This document shows positions 23,853-29,433 of a stretch of 62,008 nt of DNA, one piece after another. The stretch is from a virus: IMG/VR virus record IMGVR_UViG_3300023184_000001, positions 1 through 62,008 of that record; one strand, given 5' to 3'. Position numbers and translations under genes: made by a program. Each line of letters opens with the position of its first letter. Positions within the stretch are counted from its first letter, which is position 1. The notes under the pieces are model-generated. The model made no database searches. It was not told where the DNA came from and saw only the letters and a list, made by a program, of their open reading frames with translations.

Positions 23853-24028
23853 CCCAACCAAATAAACAGCACATACACGAACGCCTTGGCATGTCCGTGG
23901 AGGAGGCACTCAACCGTTTAATTTCGTTTGGGCAGCTTAACCACAAGTACAAGCAAGAACACGGCGAGAGCATTAACCCGCAGCACCTTGATGCTGTGCT
24001 TAACGCTACCAAGGAGAAGAACGCTTGA
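23849..24028 (+). CDS. Small early protein (59 aa)
   Basis: ATG 23849 overlaps the preceding TGA. 'IHERLGMSVEEALNRLISFGQLNHKY' forms helices. Acidic/basic, no motif recognised. Confidence 0.55.
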   Translation: MTQPNKQHIHERLGMSVEEALNRLISFGQLNHKYKQEHGESINPQHLDAVLNATKEKNA

Positions 24029-24234
24029 GATGCCCCATCTGCAATGCACAGACTGATGTAAAAGACTCACGAACACGAAAGGAAACCAACAGTGTTATCA
24101 GAAAACGTAAATGCTTCAATGACCACACCTTCCAAACGGAAGAAAAAGCCAATCAACTTCTACGACCCATTCCAAAGGGTAGACCCGAAACTGCTGGAGC
24201 AGATGTACCGAGCAGCACAAAAGGAAAAGCGTAA
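24025..24234 (+). CDS. NrdR-like zinc-ribbon protein, TTG start
   Basis: Starts at TTG 24025 overlapping TGA of the previous gene, behind AAGGAGAAG; 69 residues. The first 42 residues, 'MRCPICNAQTDVKDSRTR' then 'VIRKRKCFNDHTFQTEE', follow the zinc ribbon of NrdR (CPxC, then a third Cys; the fourth position is His). The ATP-cone domain is absent. NrdR represses ribonucleotide reductase genes; a stand-alone ribbon could be a DNA-binding regulator. The 3' half overlaps another credible frame (24092-24259), so the C terminus is uncertain. Confidence 0.6.
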   Translation: MRCPICNAQTDVKDSRTRKETNSVIRKRKCFNDHTFQTEEKANQLLRPIPKGRPETAGADVPSSTKGKA

Positions 24235-24259
24235 AGAGCTACCAGAGGCACTACTATGA
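24092..24259 (+). CDS. Overlapping small basic protein in another frame (possible)
   Basis: GTG 24092, preceded by AAGGAAA, opens a 55-residue frame ending in an ATGA overlap with the next gene. It reads '...TTPSKRKKKPINFYDPFQRVDPKLL' and 'AAQKEKRKELPEALL', a plausible basic protein. Its stop is perfectly coupled to 24256, which the zinc-ribbon frame is not. Either one or both frames may be used. Confidence 0.45.
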   Translation: MLSENVNASMTTPSKRKKKPINFYDPFQRVDPKLLEQMYRAAQKEKRKELPEALL

Positions 24260-24462
24260 CAACCGGAATTGAATTCTTAAAGCTACCAAAAAAACGCACG
24301 GGGCGAGGCCCCAACAAGAAGCCTACCTTGGTCAGTGTCAGCTTGCGTATTCCTCATGAGGTGCTGGACTATTTCACGACGCAGTACCCGTACACAAAGC
24401 AGGCGAAGATACGTGAAGCCCTTGTTGCGTTCGTCAAAAAAGAGAAAGGAAAAGACAAATGA
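24256..24462 (+). CDS. Ribbon-helix-helix DNA-binding protein (putative)
   Basis: The protein has 68 residues with a basic N-terminal arm ('PKKRTGRGPNKKP'), then 'TLVSVSLRIPHEVLDYF' (strand and first helix) and 'TKQAKIREALVAFVKKEK' (second helix). This is the strand-helix-helix pattern of Arc/CopG/BrnA-type dimers, which bind short palindromes. It is a candidate to bind the CTAACA-N-TGTTAG sites spread over this arm, one of which lies just downstream. Repressor role is inferred. Confidence 0.65.
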   Translation: MTTGIEFLKLPKKRTGRGPNKKPTLVSVSLRIPHEVLDYFTTQYPYTKQAKIREALVAFVKKEKGKDK

Positions 24463-24674
24463 GCGATCCAGTAAATCACCCCGACCACTACAAGGTGGGG
24501 GGCATCGAGACCATTGACTTCATTGAGGCTAAGCAACTGACGTACAACATTGGCAACGTGGTCAAGTACATCACTCGTGCCGACCACAAAGGCAATCAGT
24601 TGCAGGACTTGCAGAAGGCGCAGTGGTATCTGGCCCGAGAGATACAGCGCATCGAAAAGACCGCAGCAGCCTAA
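24459..24674 (+). CDS. DUF3310 protein (SaV-like)
   Basis: The 71-residue sequence 'VNHPDHYKVGGIETIDFIEAK', 'GNVVKYITRADHKG' and 'DLQKAQWYLAREI' is the classic DUF3310 pattern, small phage proteins sometimes called nucleotide kinase-like (SaV) though activity is not established for the short form. Last gene of the small-gene operon, followed by palindrome copy 11 and a terminator. Confidence 0.85.
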   Translation: MSDPVNHPDHYKVGGIETIDFIEAKQLTYNIGNVVKYITRADHKGNQLQDLQKAQWYLAREIQRIEKTAAA

Positions 24675-24684
24675 CATTGTTAGG
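24670..24684. promoter_or_regulatory. Palindrome copy 11
   Basis: CCTAACATTGTTAGG overlapping the stop codon of the DUF3310 gene (TAA at 24672-24674) and ten bases before a terminator stem. Confidence 0.65.
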
Positions 24685-24693
24685 GTAAACACC

Positions 24694-24716
24694 AACCCGT
24701 TTCGACGGGTTTTTTT
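24694..24716 (+). terminator. Intrinsic terminator ending the small-gene operon
   Basis: AACCCGT (24694-24700), loop TTCG, ACGGGTT (24705-24711), followed by T residues to 24716. A UUCG tetraloop makes the hairpin very stable. Confidence 0.9.
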
Positions 24717-24726
24717 ACGTCTGTGC

Positions 24727-24755
24727 TTGTACAAAGTCAAATGTTGTGGTACATT
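24727..24755 (+). promoter_or_regulatory. Early promoter for the replication genes
   Basis: TTGTAC (24727-24732), 17 bases, TACATT (24750-24755), with TTGTGG before the -10 as in the 13720 promoter. It reads into VRR-NUC and the split polymerase. Confidence 0.7.
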
Positions 24756-24782
24756 AGGCTCCATAAACGACTGGAGTGTTAG

Positions 24783-25079
24783 ATGGCAACAACCCCCGAG
24801 ACCAAGGTCAAGGCAAAGATCAAGGGCATCCTCAAAGCCCACAATGTTTACTACGCTATGCCAATAGGCACCGGCTACGGTAACTCAGGCGTCCCCGATT
24901 TCCTCTGCTGCGTTAACGGCCACTTCCTAGGCATCGAAGCCAAGGCAGGCAAAGGCACGACGACTGCACTGCAGGATAAGAACATCCAGCAGATCAAGGA
25001 TGCCGGGGGCACAGCAACGGTAGTCAACGAAGACACGCTTGCCTACCTAGAACAACTAATACAAATGATGAAAACATGA
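24783..25079 (+). CDS. VRR-NUC domain nuclease
   Basis: The 98-residue sequence has the single-domain VRR-NUC fold of phages: 'GYGNSGVPDFLCCVNGHFLGIEAKAG' contains the PD-(D/E)xK residues (Asp in PDF, Glu and Lys in EAK), and 'TALQDKNIQQIKDAGGTA' follows. Such enzymes are structure-specific or replication-associated nucleases related to FAN1. It overlaps the polymerase N-terminal gene by four bases, pointing to joint use in replication or repair. Confidence 0.9.
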   Translation: MATTPETKVKAKIKGILKAHNVYYAMPIGTGYGNSGVPDFLCCVNGHFLGIEAKAGKGTTTALQDKNIQQIKDAGGTATVVNEDTLAYLEQLIQMMKT

Positions 25080-26365
25080 AAATTCTCGCTTTGGATTTCG
25101 AATCCTATTACTCACAAGAGTTCAGCCTCACCAAGATGACCAATGAGGAGTACGTGCGCTCCTTTGATTTTGAGGTCATTGGTGTGTCGGTGCAGGTAGA
25201 TGACGGCGAGCCCGAGTGGTTTACCGGGGACATGATACAGACCGCTGTATTCCTGCGCAAGTTCGATTGGGAGAATAGCCTAGCCCTAGCTCACAATGCT
25301 GCGTTCGATGCGTCTATCCTTACGTGGATATTCGGTATCAAGCCGAAGGGCTGGTTGGACACGTTGTCGATGGGGCGTGCGCTGCACGGCACTGAGGTCG
25401 GTGGTAGCTTGGCTGTACTTGCAAAGCACTACGGGGTGGGCACTAAGGGCACTGAGGTAGTCACGGCGAAGGGGCTACGCCGTAAGGACTTTCCTAAGGA
25501 GCAGCTAGCAGAGTACGGCAAGTATTGCTGCAACGACACGGCCATAACCTATGCCCTGTTCCAAAAAATGGCCGAGAATTTCCCGCCGAGTGAGTTGCGA
25601 TTGATTGACCTGACCATACGCATGTTCTCGGAGCCCGTGCTGCAGTTGGACGAGGGGATTCTGACCGTGCACTTGGGTGAGGTTAGGCGCAAGAAGCAGG
25701 AGTTGCTGAGCAGGATGCTGATCGACAAGGATCAGTTGATGAGCAACAAACAGCTTGCGAAGGTGCTTGAGGGCTTTGGTGTGGTTGCGCCCATGAAGAT
25801 TAGCCCAGCTAACGGCAAACAGACCTACGCATTTTCTAAAACCGATGAGGAGTTTAAGGCGTTACTTGAGCATGACAACGTGACCGTGCAGGCCATCGTC
25901 GCTGCGCGGCTTGGGGTCAAGTCAACCATCGAGGAGACACGGACTGAGAGGTTTATTGGGATCGCCAAACGCGGTTCTATGCCAGTTCCCCTCCGCTACT
26001 ACGCTGCACACACAGGCCGATGGGGCGGTTGCTTAGTGGCCGACACTGAGGTAACGGTGTACAATACGGAAAACGAGGTAGAAGTTAAGCGCATCGTAGA
26101 TGTTTTGCTTGATGACCTAGTTTGGGACGGAGAAGAGTTTGTGCCCCACGAAGGTGTGGTGTTCAGCGGGTTCTCTGAAGTTATTAGCTGGGACGGTGTA
26201 ACAGGAACGGAAGATCATGTCGTATTCACAGACGCTGGGGAGATTAGCCTACGAAGCGCGATGCAGGGAGGCCACAAAATCGCGGTTGCGGGAAGCCCTA
26301 CCCAAAACAATGTGGACGCCGCTAGGAAGTCTGTACGTAACTACCAAGCAGAAAGTTTTGTGTGA
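25076..26365 (+). CDS. polA-N: DNA polymerase A, N-terminal half, fused to N-intein
   Basis: The protein has 429 residues. Residues 1-318 are extein: a 3'-5' exonuclease with Exo I 'LDFES', Exo II 'AHNAAFDASIL', Exo III 'YCCNDTAIT', then the start of the polymerase domain up to 'YYAAHTGRWGG'. At Cys319 an intein begins: block A 'CLVADTEVTVYN', block B 'TGTEDHVVFT' (Thr378, His381). The frame stops 111 residues into the intein. The product must be joined with 26965-27915 by protein trans-splicing to give a 608-residue PolA. Confidence 0.9.
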   Translation: MKILALDFESYYSQEFSLTKMTNEEYVRSFDFEVIGVSVQVDDGEPEWFTGDMIQTAVFLRKFDWENSLALAHNAAFDASILTWIFGIKPKGWLDTLSMGRALHGTEVGGSLAVLAKHYGVGTKGTEVVTAKGLRRKDFPKEQLAEYGKYCCNDTAITYALFQKMAENFPPSELRLIDLTIRMFSEPVLQLDEGILTVHLGEVRRKKQELLSRMLIDKDQLMSNKQLAKVLEGFGVVAPMKISPANGKQTYAFSKTDEEFKALLEHDNVTVQAIVAARLGVKSTIEETRTERFIGIAKRGSMPVPLRYYAAHTGRWGGCLVADTEVTVYNTENEVEVKRIVDVLLDDLVWDGEEFVPHEGVVFSGFSEVISWDGVTGTEDHVVFTDAGEISLRSAMQGGHKIAVAGSPTQNNVDAARKSVRNYQAESFV

Positions 26366-26984
26366 GTGTTGCTGCGGCAAGCAGTACGAGGTACGGGCGC
26401 GGGAGTTACTAGACGGCAAATCCATGAGTTGCCGTTCGTGTTCTTCCAAACTAAAAATGCTAAACCGCCCGATGGACGAACGAGTACGGATAGCCAAACT
26501 TGCGTCTGACGCGGCGCTCGCCGCTTTAACCACCAAGGCACATCCATACAGGGACAAATACGGAGTTGAGGAATATAGCGTAGTTAAAAGAACTATGGCA
26601 GGGGCCAAACAGCGGTGTTCCAACCCAAACTGTATAGGGTATTCGAACTACGGAGGTAGGGGTGTAGAGTTTAAGTTCCCCGCGCTAAAGCCCGCTATTG
26701 AATGGGTACTGGACAACTTAGGCGTAAGGCCAAGCCTGCTTCATTCCATAGATCGTATAGATAATAACCGAGGATACGAAGCGGGGAACTTACGGTGGGC
26801 TACTCGCGTGGAGCAAGCGCGAAATAAGCGAGTGTATAGGCGTACACAAAACGGCGAACGTATACGTGGGCTGAAAAAACAGCGCCCAGACCTTACCTAC
26901 GAGACCTTGCGGCTATGGATTACTCAAGGCGTCACTGATGATGAAATTTTAAACCGGAGGAAGTATGCTCGTACCAGTGTATGA
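26310..26984 (+). CDS. HNH endonuclease between the split-intein halves
   Basis: The frame is open from 26217. I take ATG 26310 (224 residues), because the part upstream only mirrors the intein frame; the ATG at 26217 has the better ribosome site, so the start is uncertain. The N terminus has cysteine pairs ('CECCCGKQYE' and 'CRSCSS'), likely a zinc finger. The nuclease core is 'LHSIDRIDNNRGYEAGNLRW' followed by 'VEQARNKR', the HNH form common in phages. It overlaps both polymerase genes and uses a third reading frame, so it is a free-standing homing endonuclease, not an intein domain. Confidence 0.8.
   Translation: MWTPLGSLYVTTKQKVLCECCCGKQYEVRARELLDGKSMSCRSCSSKLKMLNRPMDERVRIAKLASDAALAALTTKAHPYRDKYGVEEYSVVKRTMAGAKQRCSNPNCIGYSNYGGRGVEFKFPALKPAIEWVLDNLGVRPSLLHSIDRIDNNRGYEAGNLRWATRVEQARNKRVYRRTQNGERIRGLKKQRPDLTYETLRLWITQGVTDDEILNRRKYARTSV
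26956..26960 (+). promoter_or_regulatory. Strong ribosome site for the C-intein/PolA-C gene
   Basis: GGAGG four bases before ATG 26965. It lies in the end of the HNH gene and shows that the C-terminal polymerase half is translated independently. Confidence 0.85.
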
Positions 26985-27915
26985 CATTAAGAATTGTGGC
27001 CCGCGACACCGATTTTCTGCCAACGGAAAATTAGCGCATAACTCAGATAACGTAAACCTGCAGAACCTGCCACGCAAATCCCCGCTGAAGTATTCCATCA
27101 TTGCCCCCGATGGGTATGTTGTGTTGGACTCAGACTCATCCCAGATCGAAGCCCGTACGCTGGCATGGCTAGCTGGGCAGAATGACTTGGTTGAAGCATT
27201 CGATAAGGGCGAGGATGTGTACTGCATCATGGCGTCAGCCATCTACGGACGCCAGATTACCAAGGCTGACGAGCGTGAACGCTTTGTAGGTAAAACGACG
27301 ATTTTGGGTAGCGGCTACGCCATGGGTGCACCGAAGTTCAAGCTGCAACTGAAAAACTTTGGCGTTGACGTTGAGCTAGACGAGGCCAAGCGAATCATTG
27401 CTACCTACCGGGCTACCTACCCTAACATTGTTAGGCTGTGGGCAGAAGCTGGTGACATGCTCAGGGCCATGCTACGGAACGCACAAACAACACTGGGGCG
27501 TAACGGGCTGCTGGAAGTCGATGGAGCCAACGGCATCAAGCTACCCAATGGGCTATACCTGCGCTACCCAAACTTGCGCCTACGCGAGGACGAGAAGACA
27601 GGCAAGGTCGAAGTTGTGTACGACACCAAGAAGGGCAAAACAGTTATTCCCAACCGCATATACGGTGGTAAGGTGATAGAGAACGTGTGTCAGGCGCTAG
27701 CCCGCATCGTCATAGGTGAGCAGATGCTCATGGTGGCGAAGAAGTATCGGGTAGTCATGACCGTGCACGATGCGATTGCTGTCGTAGCCCCTAAAGCCGA
27801 GGCTGAAACAGCCAAGGAGTACGTTGAGTTGTGTATGCGACTCAGACCCAAATGGGCGCTGGAACTACCCCTCAACTGTGAATCTGGATATGGAGATAGC
27901 TATGGCGACTGCTAG
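26965..27915 (+). CDS. polA-C: C-intein fused to DNA polymerase A, C-terminal half
   Basis: The protein has 316 residues. Residues 1-26 are the C-intein: block F 'VPVYDIKNCGPRHRFS', block G 'ANGKLAHN' ending in the required His-Asn; the next residue, Ser27, is the +1 nucleophile. The extein continues 'SDNVNLQNLPR', motif A 'DSSQIEAR' (Asp57), motif B 'KTTILGSGYAMG', motif C 'VHDA' (Asp269; the usual Glu is Ala). N- and C-intein total 137 residues, the size of a complete mini-intein. Palindrome copy 12 lies in the gene. Confidence 0.9.
   Translation: MLVPVYDIKNCGPRHRFSANGKLAHNSDNVNLQNLPRKSPLKYSIIAPDGYVVLDSDSSQIEARTLAWLAGQNDLVEAFDKGEDVYCIMASAIYGRQITKADERERFVGKTTILGSGYAMGAPKFKLQLKNFGVDVELDEAKRIIATYRATYPNIVRLWAEAGDMLRAMLRNAQTTLGRNGLLEVDGANGIKLPNGLYLRYPNLRLREDEKTGKVEVVYDTKKGKTVIPNRIYGGKVIENVCQALARIVIGEQMLMVAKKYRVVMTVHDAIAVVAPKAEAETAKEYVELCMRLRPKWALELPLNCESGYGDSYGDC
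27421..27435. promoter_or_regulatory. Palindrome copy 12
   Basis: CCTAACATTGTTAGG in the polymerase C-terminal gene, encoding P-N-I-V-R. It is the last copy; none is seen further right. Confidence 0.5.
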
Positions 27916-28228
27916 AAGACCATTTCATGTACGGCAAATTGAATTTGACAGGTGGAATACAGAAAATCCAATGGTGTGGAAATACTTTGAGAAGTATTCA
28001 TTCGAAGCCGTACACCACGGCAGGGAAAAAATTAGCCATTGGTTAATCATCAACCGCATACGTTGGGAAGTCTATATAGTTACCACTGGCAAAGACTTTA
28101 AGATCAGCAACGACCTTATTGCTTTCTACGCTCGATTCTGGCGTAAAACATATCCACAGCACAAACACCTGTTCAACATCAAGCGCATGTCTGGTGAAAT
28201 TTGGGAGCAAGAATCCGATGAACCCTAA
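27902..28228 (+). CDS. Conserved phage protein after PolA, unknown
   Basis: ATG 27902 behind GGAG overlaps the polymerase end by 14 bases; 108 residues. 'FDRWNTENPMVWKYFEKYSFEAV', 'NRIRWEVYIVTTG' and 'FKISNDLIAFYARFW' form a pattern I know from many phage hypothetical proteins in replication clusters. No catalytic motif visible. Context suggests DNA metabolism. Confidence 0.75.
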   Translation: MATARRPFHVRQIEFDRWNTENPMVWKYFEKYSFEAVHHGREKISHWLIINRIRWEVYIVTTGKDFKISNDLIAFYARFWRKTYPQHKHLFNIKRMSGEIWEQESDEP

Positions 28229-28892
28229 ACCAATCGTCTGGTCATTCAGTTCGCTGAAGACCTTTCAGCAGTGCCCACGCAAGTACTACCACGCTAAGGT
28301 TGCCCCGGACGCTGTACGTGACCCGGACACAACGGCTACGCTGTACGGTAAGGCTGCACACACTGTAGCCGAGGACTACATCAGCAAGGGCACACCGGTA
28401 CCGCCGCAGTTTGAGTACATGCAAGAGGTGCTGGATATCCTTAAAGCAATCCCCGGCGAGAAGCTAGTCGAGGTGAAGCTGGGCCTAACCAAAGACTTGA
28501 AGGCGTGTGACTTCAGCGCACCTGATGTGTGGTGGCACGGCATTGCCGACTTGGTGGTTATCAATCGAACGACAGGGGTAGCCCACTCCGTGGACTACAA
28601 GACAAGTAAGAACGCAAGATACGCAGACAAAAAGCAGCTTGACCTTGTAGCCTGTGGCCTGTTTGCCAAGTTCCCGGAGATCAAGAAGGTCAAGTCTGCC
28701 TTGATTTTTGTAGTGTCCAAAGAGTTCGTCAAGGCTGAGCAGCTAGTTGAGTTCAAGGACACCTACATGGACAAGTCAGCAGTTGATGTTGCGCGTATTG
28801 AAGCAGCAATAAAGAGCGGGGTGTGGAACCCCGTTAGTGGGCCGCTGTGCAAATTCTGCGCGGTGAAAGACTGCGAGTACAACAGGAGCTAA
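28218..28892 (+). CDS. PD-(D/E)xK nuclease, Cas4/RecB-like
   Basis: ATG 28218 overlaps the previous gene by eleven bases; 224 residues. Motifs: 'LKTFQQCPRKYYH' at the N terminus, 'WHGIADLVVIN' with the first acidic residue, 'HSVDYKTSK' (D-x-K core), 'KQLDLVACGLF' helix, and C-terminal 'CKFCAVKDCEY'. The four cysteines (one N-terminal, three C-terminal) suit an iron-sulfur cluster as in Cas4 and AddB. Such enzymes process DNA ends in recombination. No CRISPR genes are near. Confidence 0.85.
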   Translation: MNPKPIVWSFSSLKTFQQCPRKYYHAKVAPDAVRDPDTTATLYGKAAHTVAEDYISKGTPVPPQFEYMQEVLDILKAIPGEKLVEVKLGLTKDLKACDFSAPDVWWHGIADLVVINRTTGVAHSVDYKTSKNARYADKKQLDLVACGLFAKFPEIKKVKSALIFVVSKEFVKAEQLVEFKDTYMDKSAVDVARIEAAIKSGVWNPVSGPLCKFCAVKDCEYNRS

Positions 28893-28894
28893 AC

Positions 28895-29152
28895 ATGAAT
28901 CAGATGACCAACCAAGAAACTGATACCGCTCTCATCCTTGAGGGTGAGCTAAAGCGCCGAGTGAAAGAAGTTGTCGAACGTGTAGTAGTGAACATGGTGG
29001 GTAAGATCATCCACGAGGAACTGAACAAGTACAAATCTGAAATGATGCTAGAGGTTGCCTTAACAGTCGGTAAGATGCTGCGGGTGGTTGAGCAGGAGGG
29101 CCGCAAGCCGCTATGGGAAAATGATGCAGTATCAGCAATCACAAAGGACTAA
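28895..29152 (+). CDS. Small helical protein (85 aa)
   Basis: ATG 28895 behind AGGAG. Helical throughout, with 'LKRRVKEVVERVVVNMVGKIIHEELN' and 'LEVALTVGKMLRVVEQEGR'. Similar small helical genes occur between nuclease and helicase genes of phages. Function unknown. Confidence 0.65.
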   Translation: MNQMTNQETDTALILEGELKRRVKEVVERVVVNMVGKIIHEELNKYKSEMMLEVALTVGKMLRVVEQEGRKPLWENDAVSAITKD

Positions 29153-29154
29153 TC

Positions 29155-29433
29155 ATGCCTTACGTAAACAAACCCCGCCCGTACAAAAAAGAGTACGCCC
29201 AGCAAGTTGAGCGAGGCGAAGCCCCTACCCGTGCGGTGCGACAGAAAGCCCGTGACGAGATGGATGCTAAGGGTATCGACCGTACCGGCAAAGACATTGA
29301 CCACTCAACCCCCCTGAGCAAAGGCGGCACCAATGCACCGAGCAACTTGAAGCTCAAGTCGCCGAGTGCCAACCGTTCTTTTACCCGCAACTCCGACCAC
29401 ACAGTCAAGGTCAACAAACCAAAGAAAAAATGA
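29155..29433 (+). CDS. Small HNH-like basic protein
   Basis: The protein has 92 residues. Basic helical N terminus ('RPYKKEYAQQVERGE'), then 'GKDIDHSTPLSKGGTNAPSN' and 'KLKSPSANRSF'. The D-H...L-S-x-G-G-x-N-x-x-x-N spacing is that of HNH nucleases (DH, N, and N/H), but the protein is short and the third ligand is unclear. It may be an active nuclease or a DNA-binding relic. Overlaps the helicase start by four bases. Confidence 0.65.
   Translation: MPYVNKPRPYKKEYAQQVERGEAPTRAVRQKARDEMDAKGIDRTGKDIDHSTPLSKGGTNAPSNLKLKSPSANRSFTRNSDHTVKVNKPKKK

Follow-up and report, generated by a model that had tools for sequence, protein, structure and literature searches.

Organization of the polA Locus

The window, i.e., the whole stretch of DNA analyzed here, is a viral record of 62,008 bases (IMGVR_UViG_3300023184_000001). 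Its family-A DNA polymerase gene (polA) is present as two separately started open reading frames (ORFs), which are broken inside an intein (Table 1). The sequence-only reading had described PolA as two genes carrying an N-intein, a C-intein followed by Ser, and a GGAGG site ahead of the second gene, and every one of these pieces was found where it had been placed; the ends of the two exteins agree with the insertion point proposed between HTGRWGG and SDNVN. The N-half contains an exonuclease domain (Pfam DNA_pol_A_exo1, 9e-9), and the N-extein presents up to 97% identity to the closest intein-free alleles. All motifs of a class 1 intein are present in the window (Cys1, block B TxxH, His-Asn, and Ser+1). 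The C-intein of classical natural split inteins comprises approximately 35–40 residues, as compared to 26 at this locus. An HNH endonuclease gene has its own ORF in a third frame, as the sequence-only reading had stated; however, it is not a free-standing gene between the two halves, but overlaps both parts of the intein.

Table 1. Features of the polA locus in the window, and related inteins with a nested HNH gene.
Feature	Position	Strand	Description
PolA N-half ORF	25076-26365	+	429 aa; ends in the N-intein
N-extein (PolA 3'-5' exonuclease and N-terminal part)	25076..26029	+	318 residues; C-terminal end HTGRWGG
N-intein	26030..26362	+	111 residues; Cys1 at 26030; block B T-E-D-H; stop codon at 26363-26365
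HNH endonuclease gene (most likely start)	26217..26984	+	+1 frame; 255 aa; four-Cys zinc ribbon and HNH core
Shine-Dalgarno site of the C-half, CGGAGGAAGT	26955..26964	+	GGAGG directly 5' of the ATG
C-half ORF	26965-27915	+	316 aa; N-terminal C-intein; separate Shine-Dalgarno site
C-intein, MLVPVYDIKNCGPRHRFSANGKLAHN	26965..27042	+	26 residues including its own Met; C-terminal His-Asn, then Ser
C-extein (PolA palm and fingers)	27043..27915	+	begins at Ser+1; Pfam DNA_pol_A, 6.6e-31
Probable co-conversion tract	27043..27054	+	7 differences in 12 nt from the closest empty alleles; near identity beyond
Nested-HNH contiguous inteins (PolA, terminase-like, helicase-like)			L230, L231, L234, L236-L243, L190, L192, L226-L228, L232

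Recurrence of the Insert at the Same PolA Site

To collect loci, viral contigs were scanned using the two halves of the gene as well as N- and C-intein alignments, and duplicates were removed. A total of 28 distinct inserts, all in metagenome-derived records, were found to occupy the same PolA site; counts of inserts take related inserts as separate units. The break, the frame phase, and the start of the C-half recur in this set, and the N-intein is kept throughout (102–111 residues). The insert length equals 2 mod 3 in each of the 28 inserts (407 nt in L035 and 989–1031 nt in the others), the position of the C-intein ATG is shared by 27 inserts, a Shine-Dalgarno-like motif precedes this ATG in 26, and the HNH stop codon lies 20 nt into the C-half in nearly all. 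At the DNA level, the locus had no match among phage records, a search of phage records with the N-intein retrieved distant inteins only, and a scan of genome contigs found no occurrence.

Frame breaks usually signal an error, and the sequence-only reading had asked for a check of the locus for frameshift errors. This check was made through the relatives, and a frameshift error was excluded because the 27 other inserts, from separate metagenome records, show the identical three-frame layout. In addition, all three coding parts are under purifying selection (pN/pS = 0.25 for N-intein codons 1–62, 0.25 for the HNH gene outside the overlap, and 0.11 for the C-intein), and we give next to no weight to a sequencing or assembly error, or to a decaying intein, as the source of this layout.

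The HNH Gene and Its Overlap with the Intein Code

The HNH protein matches HNH families in PHROG (down to 3e-27), and no HNH match above cut-off was obtained with Pfam. Four Cys residues and a D-R-x-D-N / N-x-R-W-A core are invariant in 27 HNH proteins. The predicted structure of the HNH protein presented a pLDDT of 88.1; a Foldseek search of this model against the PDB gave no significant fold match, and a PDB sequence search with the HNH protein gave nothing credible. A small ORF elsewhere in the window (29155-29433), adjoining a helicase gene, also showed weak matches to HNH families.

The HNH gene overlaps the N-intein ORF at 26217-26365 (49 N-intein codons) and the C-half ORF at 26965-26984 (20 nt). 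To assess silent-site constraint, codon identity among inserts sharing an amino acid was compared with that expected from the codon usage of flanking PolA. Codons 1–62 of the N-intein were near expectation (codon identity of 0.37–0.46, as compared to 0.38–0.40 expected), whereas identity from codon 63 onward was far above it (0.68–0.77, as compared to 0.36–0.38 expected); codon 63 was the best change point, and none of 2000 permutations produced one as strong. This codon encodes the catalytic His of block B and is CAT in 26 of the 28 inserts, so that CAT followed by G yields an ATG, located at 26217 in the window; in the remaining two inserts (L222 and L223), no ATG is formed at this codon. 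None of the 28 inserts has a stop codon in the +1 frame along the overlap, whereas synonymous shuffles leave this frame open in 34% of cases on average, and the helix encoded by the overlap (HNH residues 7–30) is modelled at a pLDDT of 94–97. Because the constraint sets in at the ATG-forming codon, the +1 frame is open, and the overlap-coded helix is confident, position 26217 is the most likely start of the HNH gene. A nearer ATG, at 26313, was rejected as the start; this codon is not ATG in other inserts (e.g., L095), and the silent-site constraint begins 32 codons before it.

An alternative that concerns the HNH start, and not the split intein, would attribute the constraint to a conserved RNA element or to local gene conversion, with the HNH gene beginning further downstream. 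The early start is drawn only from the silent-site constraint and the open frame, and not every insert shows an obvious, good Shine-Dalgarno site ahead of this gene; however, the onset of constraint falls exactly on the ATG-making codon, the frame is open in every insert, and the overlap-coded part forms a confidently modelled helix, which together make a downstream start unlikely.

Sequence and Fold Evidence for Probable Protein Splicing

Among the 28 occupied alleles, 25 carry Ser and three carry Cys at +1, whereas this position is Asp in 87 of the 88 distinct empty junctions and Ala in the remaining one; one further Ser among the listed empty junctions belonged to L035, which is itself occupied and was left out of the 88. 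This contrast between occupied and empty alleles implies, at the sequence level, that the inserts splice. Cys1 and the terminal His-Asn are invariant in 28/28 inserts, and block B is recognizable. The inserts with Cys rather than Ser at +1 are the fractured inserts L172, L216, and L223.

A contiguous sibling mini-intein of 114 residues (L224) was modelled with family rows and gave one good model among five (pLDDT = 87.8, pTM = 0.77); the 36 best PDB fold matches of this model were all inteins or related Hint domains, and the modelled fold is shared with the gp41-1, Npu DnaE, and Ssp DnaB inteins. The HINT fold was thus obtained for a contiguous sibling and not for the joined halves of the window; a PDB sequence search with the joined halves gave nothing credible.

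Three alternatives to trans-splicing were weighed against these data. In the first, polA would be a gene in pieces, with the two halves assembling unligated and the intein remnants being inert. There is a precedent for such an arrangement in a phage ribonucleotide reductase whose gene is interrupted by an inserted endonuclease and which still functions as two chains (as cited in PMC10448857). The retention of Cys1, His-Asn, and Ser/Cys+1 in all 28 inserts, the Asp or Ala at position +1 of the empty alleles, and the strong purifying selection on the C-intein argue against inert remnants, and we consider this arrangement very unlikely. In the second, programmed ribosomal frameshifting, +1 twice, would yield a single uninterrupted polypeptide that contains HNH as an in-frame domain. 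This is consistent with each successive frame being +1 of the previous one and with the constant phase; however, the C-half carries its own ATG and a Shine-Dalgarno-like site in nearly all inserts, and L035, an insert without HNH, has a TAG stop codon at the end of its N-half, followed by an AGGA-type site and an ATG. Frameshifting therefore appears exceedingly unlikely. In the third, a self-splicing intron would carry the HNH gene, as phage introns commonly do. No Rfam match was found across 24000-29000 at E <= 1, i.e., no catalytic RNA of a group I or II intron, and the ends of the insert encode conserved intein motifs under selection, leaving an intron with almost no probability. Both in the window and in at least 27 further inserts related to it, the two PolA proteins are most likely rejoined by the split intein.

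The insert in L035 has kept the split intein while the HNH gene is absent. It has a remnant frame of 53 codons that begins at the same ATG as the HNH gene and ends in NRKKYACTSV, resembling the end of the HNH protein in the window (NRRKYARTSV). We read L035 as the product of a deletion that left the split intein in place; the reverse order, with the form seen in L035 preceding the HNH-bearing form, may also apply.

Empty Alleles and Mobility

Intein-free alleles in relatives, which the sequence-only reading had proposed to look for, are common, with >100 loci being uninterrupted at the exact PolA site. In a PolA tree, the window falls inside a clade of empty alleles (support of 95, quick method). 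Compared with the empty allele L010, the window presented no difference in the 120 nt upstream of the insert; downstream, seven differences lie within 12 nt of the insert, and the rest of the 120 nt adds a single one. This pattern is probably that of a recent acquisition with a short co-conversion tract; near the site, the closest empty alleles differ by the insert and these seven changes, as expected of co-conversion during homing. The site thus has both occupied and empty alleles, with an apparent acquisition into a near-identical empty background. Identity between inteins was higher than that between hosts in 300/300 pairs (mean of 0.70 for the intein, 0.49 for the host, and 0.56 for HNH). 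Higher conservation of the intein than of the host is expected of mobility, although slower evolution could be an alternative cause.

Contiguous Relatives with Nested HNH Genes

The wider family includes contiguous inteins at other PolA sites, in a terminase-like protein (L192), and in helicase-like proteins (L233, L240, and L241). In these contiguous inteins, the intein ORF is unbroken, and the HNH gene nested within it uses the +1 frame; an in-frame HNH domain, considered for them initially, was found to be wrong. The intein frame is open over 182–240 HNH codons in 17/17 contiguous relatives tested, and synonymous shuffles of the nested HNH gene left it open in 0–3.5% of cases, mostly in no more than 0.1%. 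By contrast, both other frames are interrupted across the HNH gene in all 27 members of the fractured set. Two phages carry an out-of-frame HNH gene inside the intein of an annotated DNA polymerase gene, namely Caulobacter phage RW (L247, 3390-4049) and Gardnerella phage vB_Gva_AB1 (L002).

Three loci (L162, L163, and L173) presented two PolA inteins, one fractured and one contiguous (at TTILG^CGYG or similar), each with an HNH gene; the HNH gene of the contiguous intein, which is located in the C-half, lies in the +2 frame, and this frame contains one stop codon in L173. A Moraxella phage protein (L001, 2629-3561; L244-L246) has a contiguous intein at the same site, HTGRYGG, flanked by apparent ThyX and PolA fragments, with a DUF3310-like tail in L001, L244, and L245; these proteins look like chimeras or remnants.

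Proposed Mechanism and Relation to Known Systems

We consider it highly probable that a mobile class-1-like intein, split by nature, resides in this phage family-A DNA polymerase, that its HNH homing endonuclease is encoded in an overlapping frame, and that the element acts by trans-splicing and homing; splicing, cleavage by the HNH protein, and translation of HNH from 26217 are the steps that we infer. One stretch of DNA would give rise to three proteins, i.e., the N-terminal part of PolA with the N-intein, the HNH protein, initiated at an ATG within the sequence that encodes the N-intein, and the C-terminal part of PolA preceded by the C-intein, for which a separate ribosome-binding site would be used. 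The two parts of the intein would associate and splice in trans through Cys1, the block-B His, the terminal His-Asn, and Ser+1, joining PolA at GRWGG-SDNVN. In phages infecting the same cell, the HNH protein would cut intein-free polA close to the insertion site, and the element would spread when the break is repaired with the occupied copy as template.

Fractured genes with split inteins were reportedly described by Dassa et al. in 2009, with a Vsr-like endonuclease said to be present at half of the loci. The locus described here resembles them in that a split intein divides a conserved phage enzyme in two and an endonuclease gene is located at the point of division, but it has an HNH gene that overlaps both intein halves in place of the Vsr-like gene of those loci. 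In the Pseudomonas jumbo phage MIJ3, PolB has been described as being split, with both a split intein and an HNH gene (PMC6892783); the host protein there is PolB, the intein motifs are different, with a first block that begins with Ser, and, in the accessible part of that report, overlap coding and family-wide conservation are not mentioned. Because of this published case, the combination of split polymerase, split intein, and HNH gene, which the sequence-only reading had thought might be new, is less new as a kind; the dual-coding overlap is the newer part. The ShiLan element in a phage methylase is a mobile insertion that conceals an HNH gene in another reading frame, with an open host frame and no splicing domains found (PMC11855218), whereas the host frame of the PolA locus is broken and an intein is present; the contiguous relatives nest the HNH gene as in ShiLan, but keep the intein motifs. 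In a search of mostly openly accessible literature, no paper was found on a PolA split intein or on an HNH gene nested out of frame in an intein; on a provisional basis, the PolA host, the dual coding, and the nesting in the relatives appear to be novel.

Implications

With a C-intein of only 26 residues, Cys1/Ser+1 chemistry, and 28 natural variants, these inteins may be of use for protein ligation. The overlap ties the endonuclease and the intein together because many changes in it touch both proteins. With regard to the origin of split inteins, this family offers a graded set of empty sites, contiguous inteins, inteins with a nested out-of-frame HNH gene, split inteins with an overlapping HNH gene, and a split intein without HNH; the nested form can be tested in the cultured Caulobacter and Gardnerella phages. 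We see about even chances for a broader interpretation, in which HNH genes of phage inteins would often lie out of frame atop the intein code, with the intein frame either open or broken into separately started halves; nesting would then be a general route to split inteins, and, in the PolA family, the codon of the catalytic His would double as the HNH start codon.
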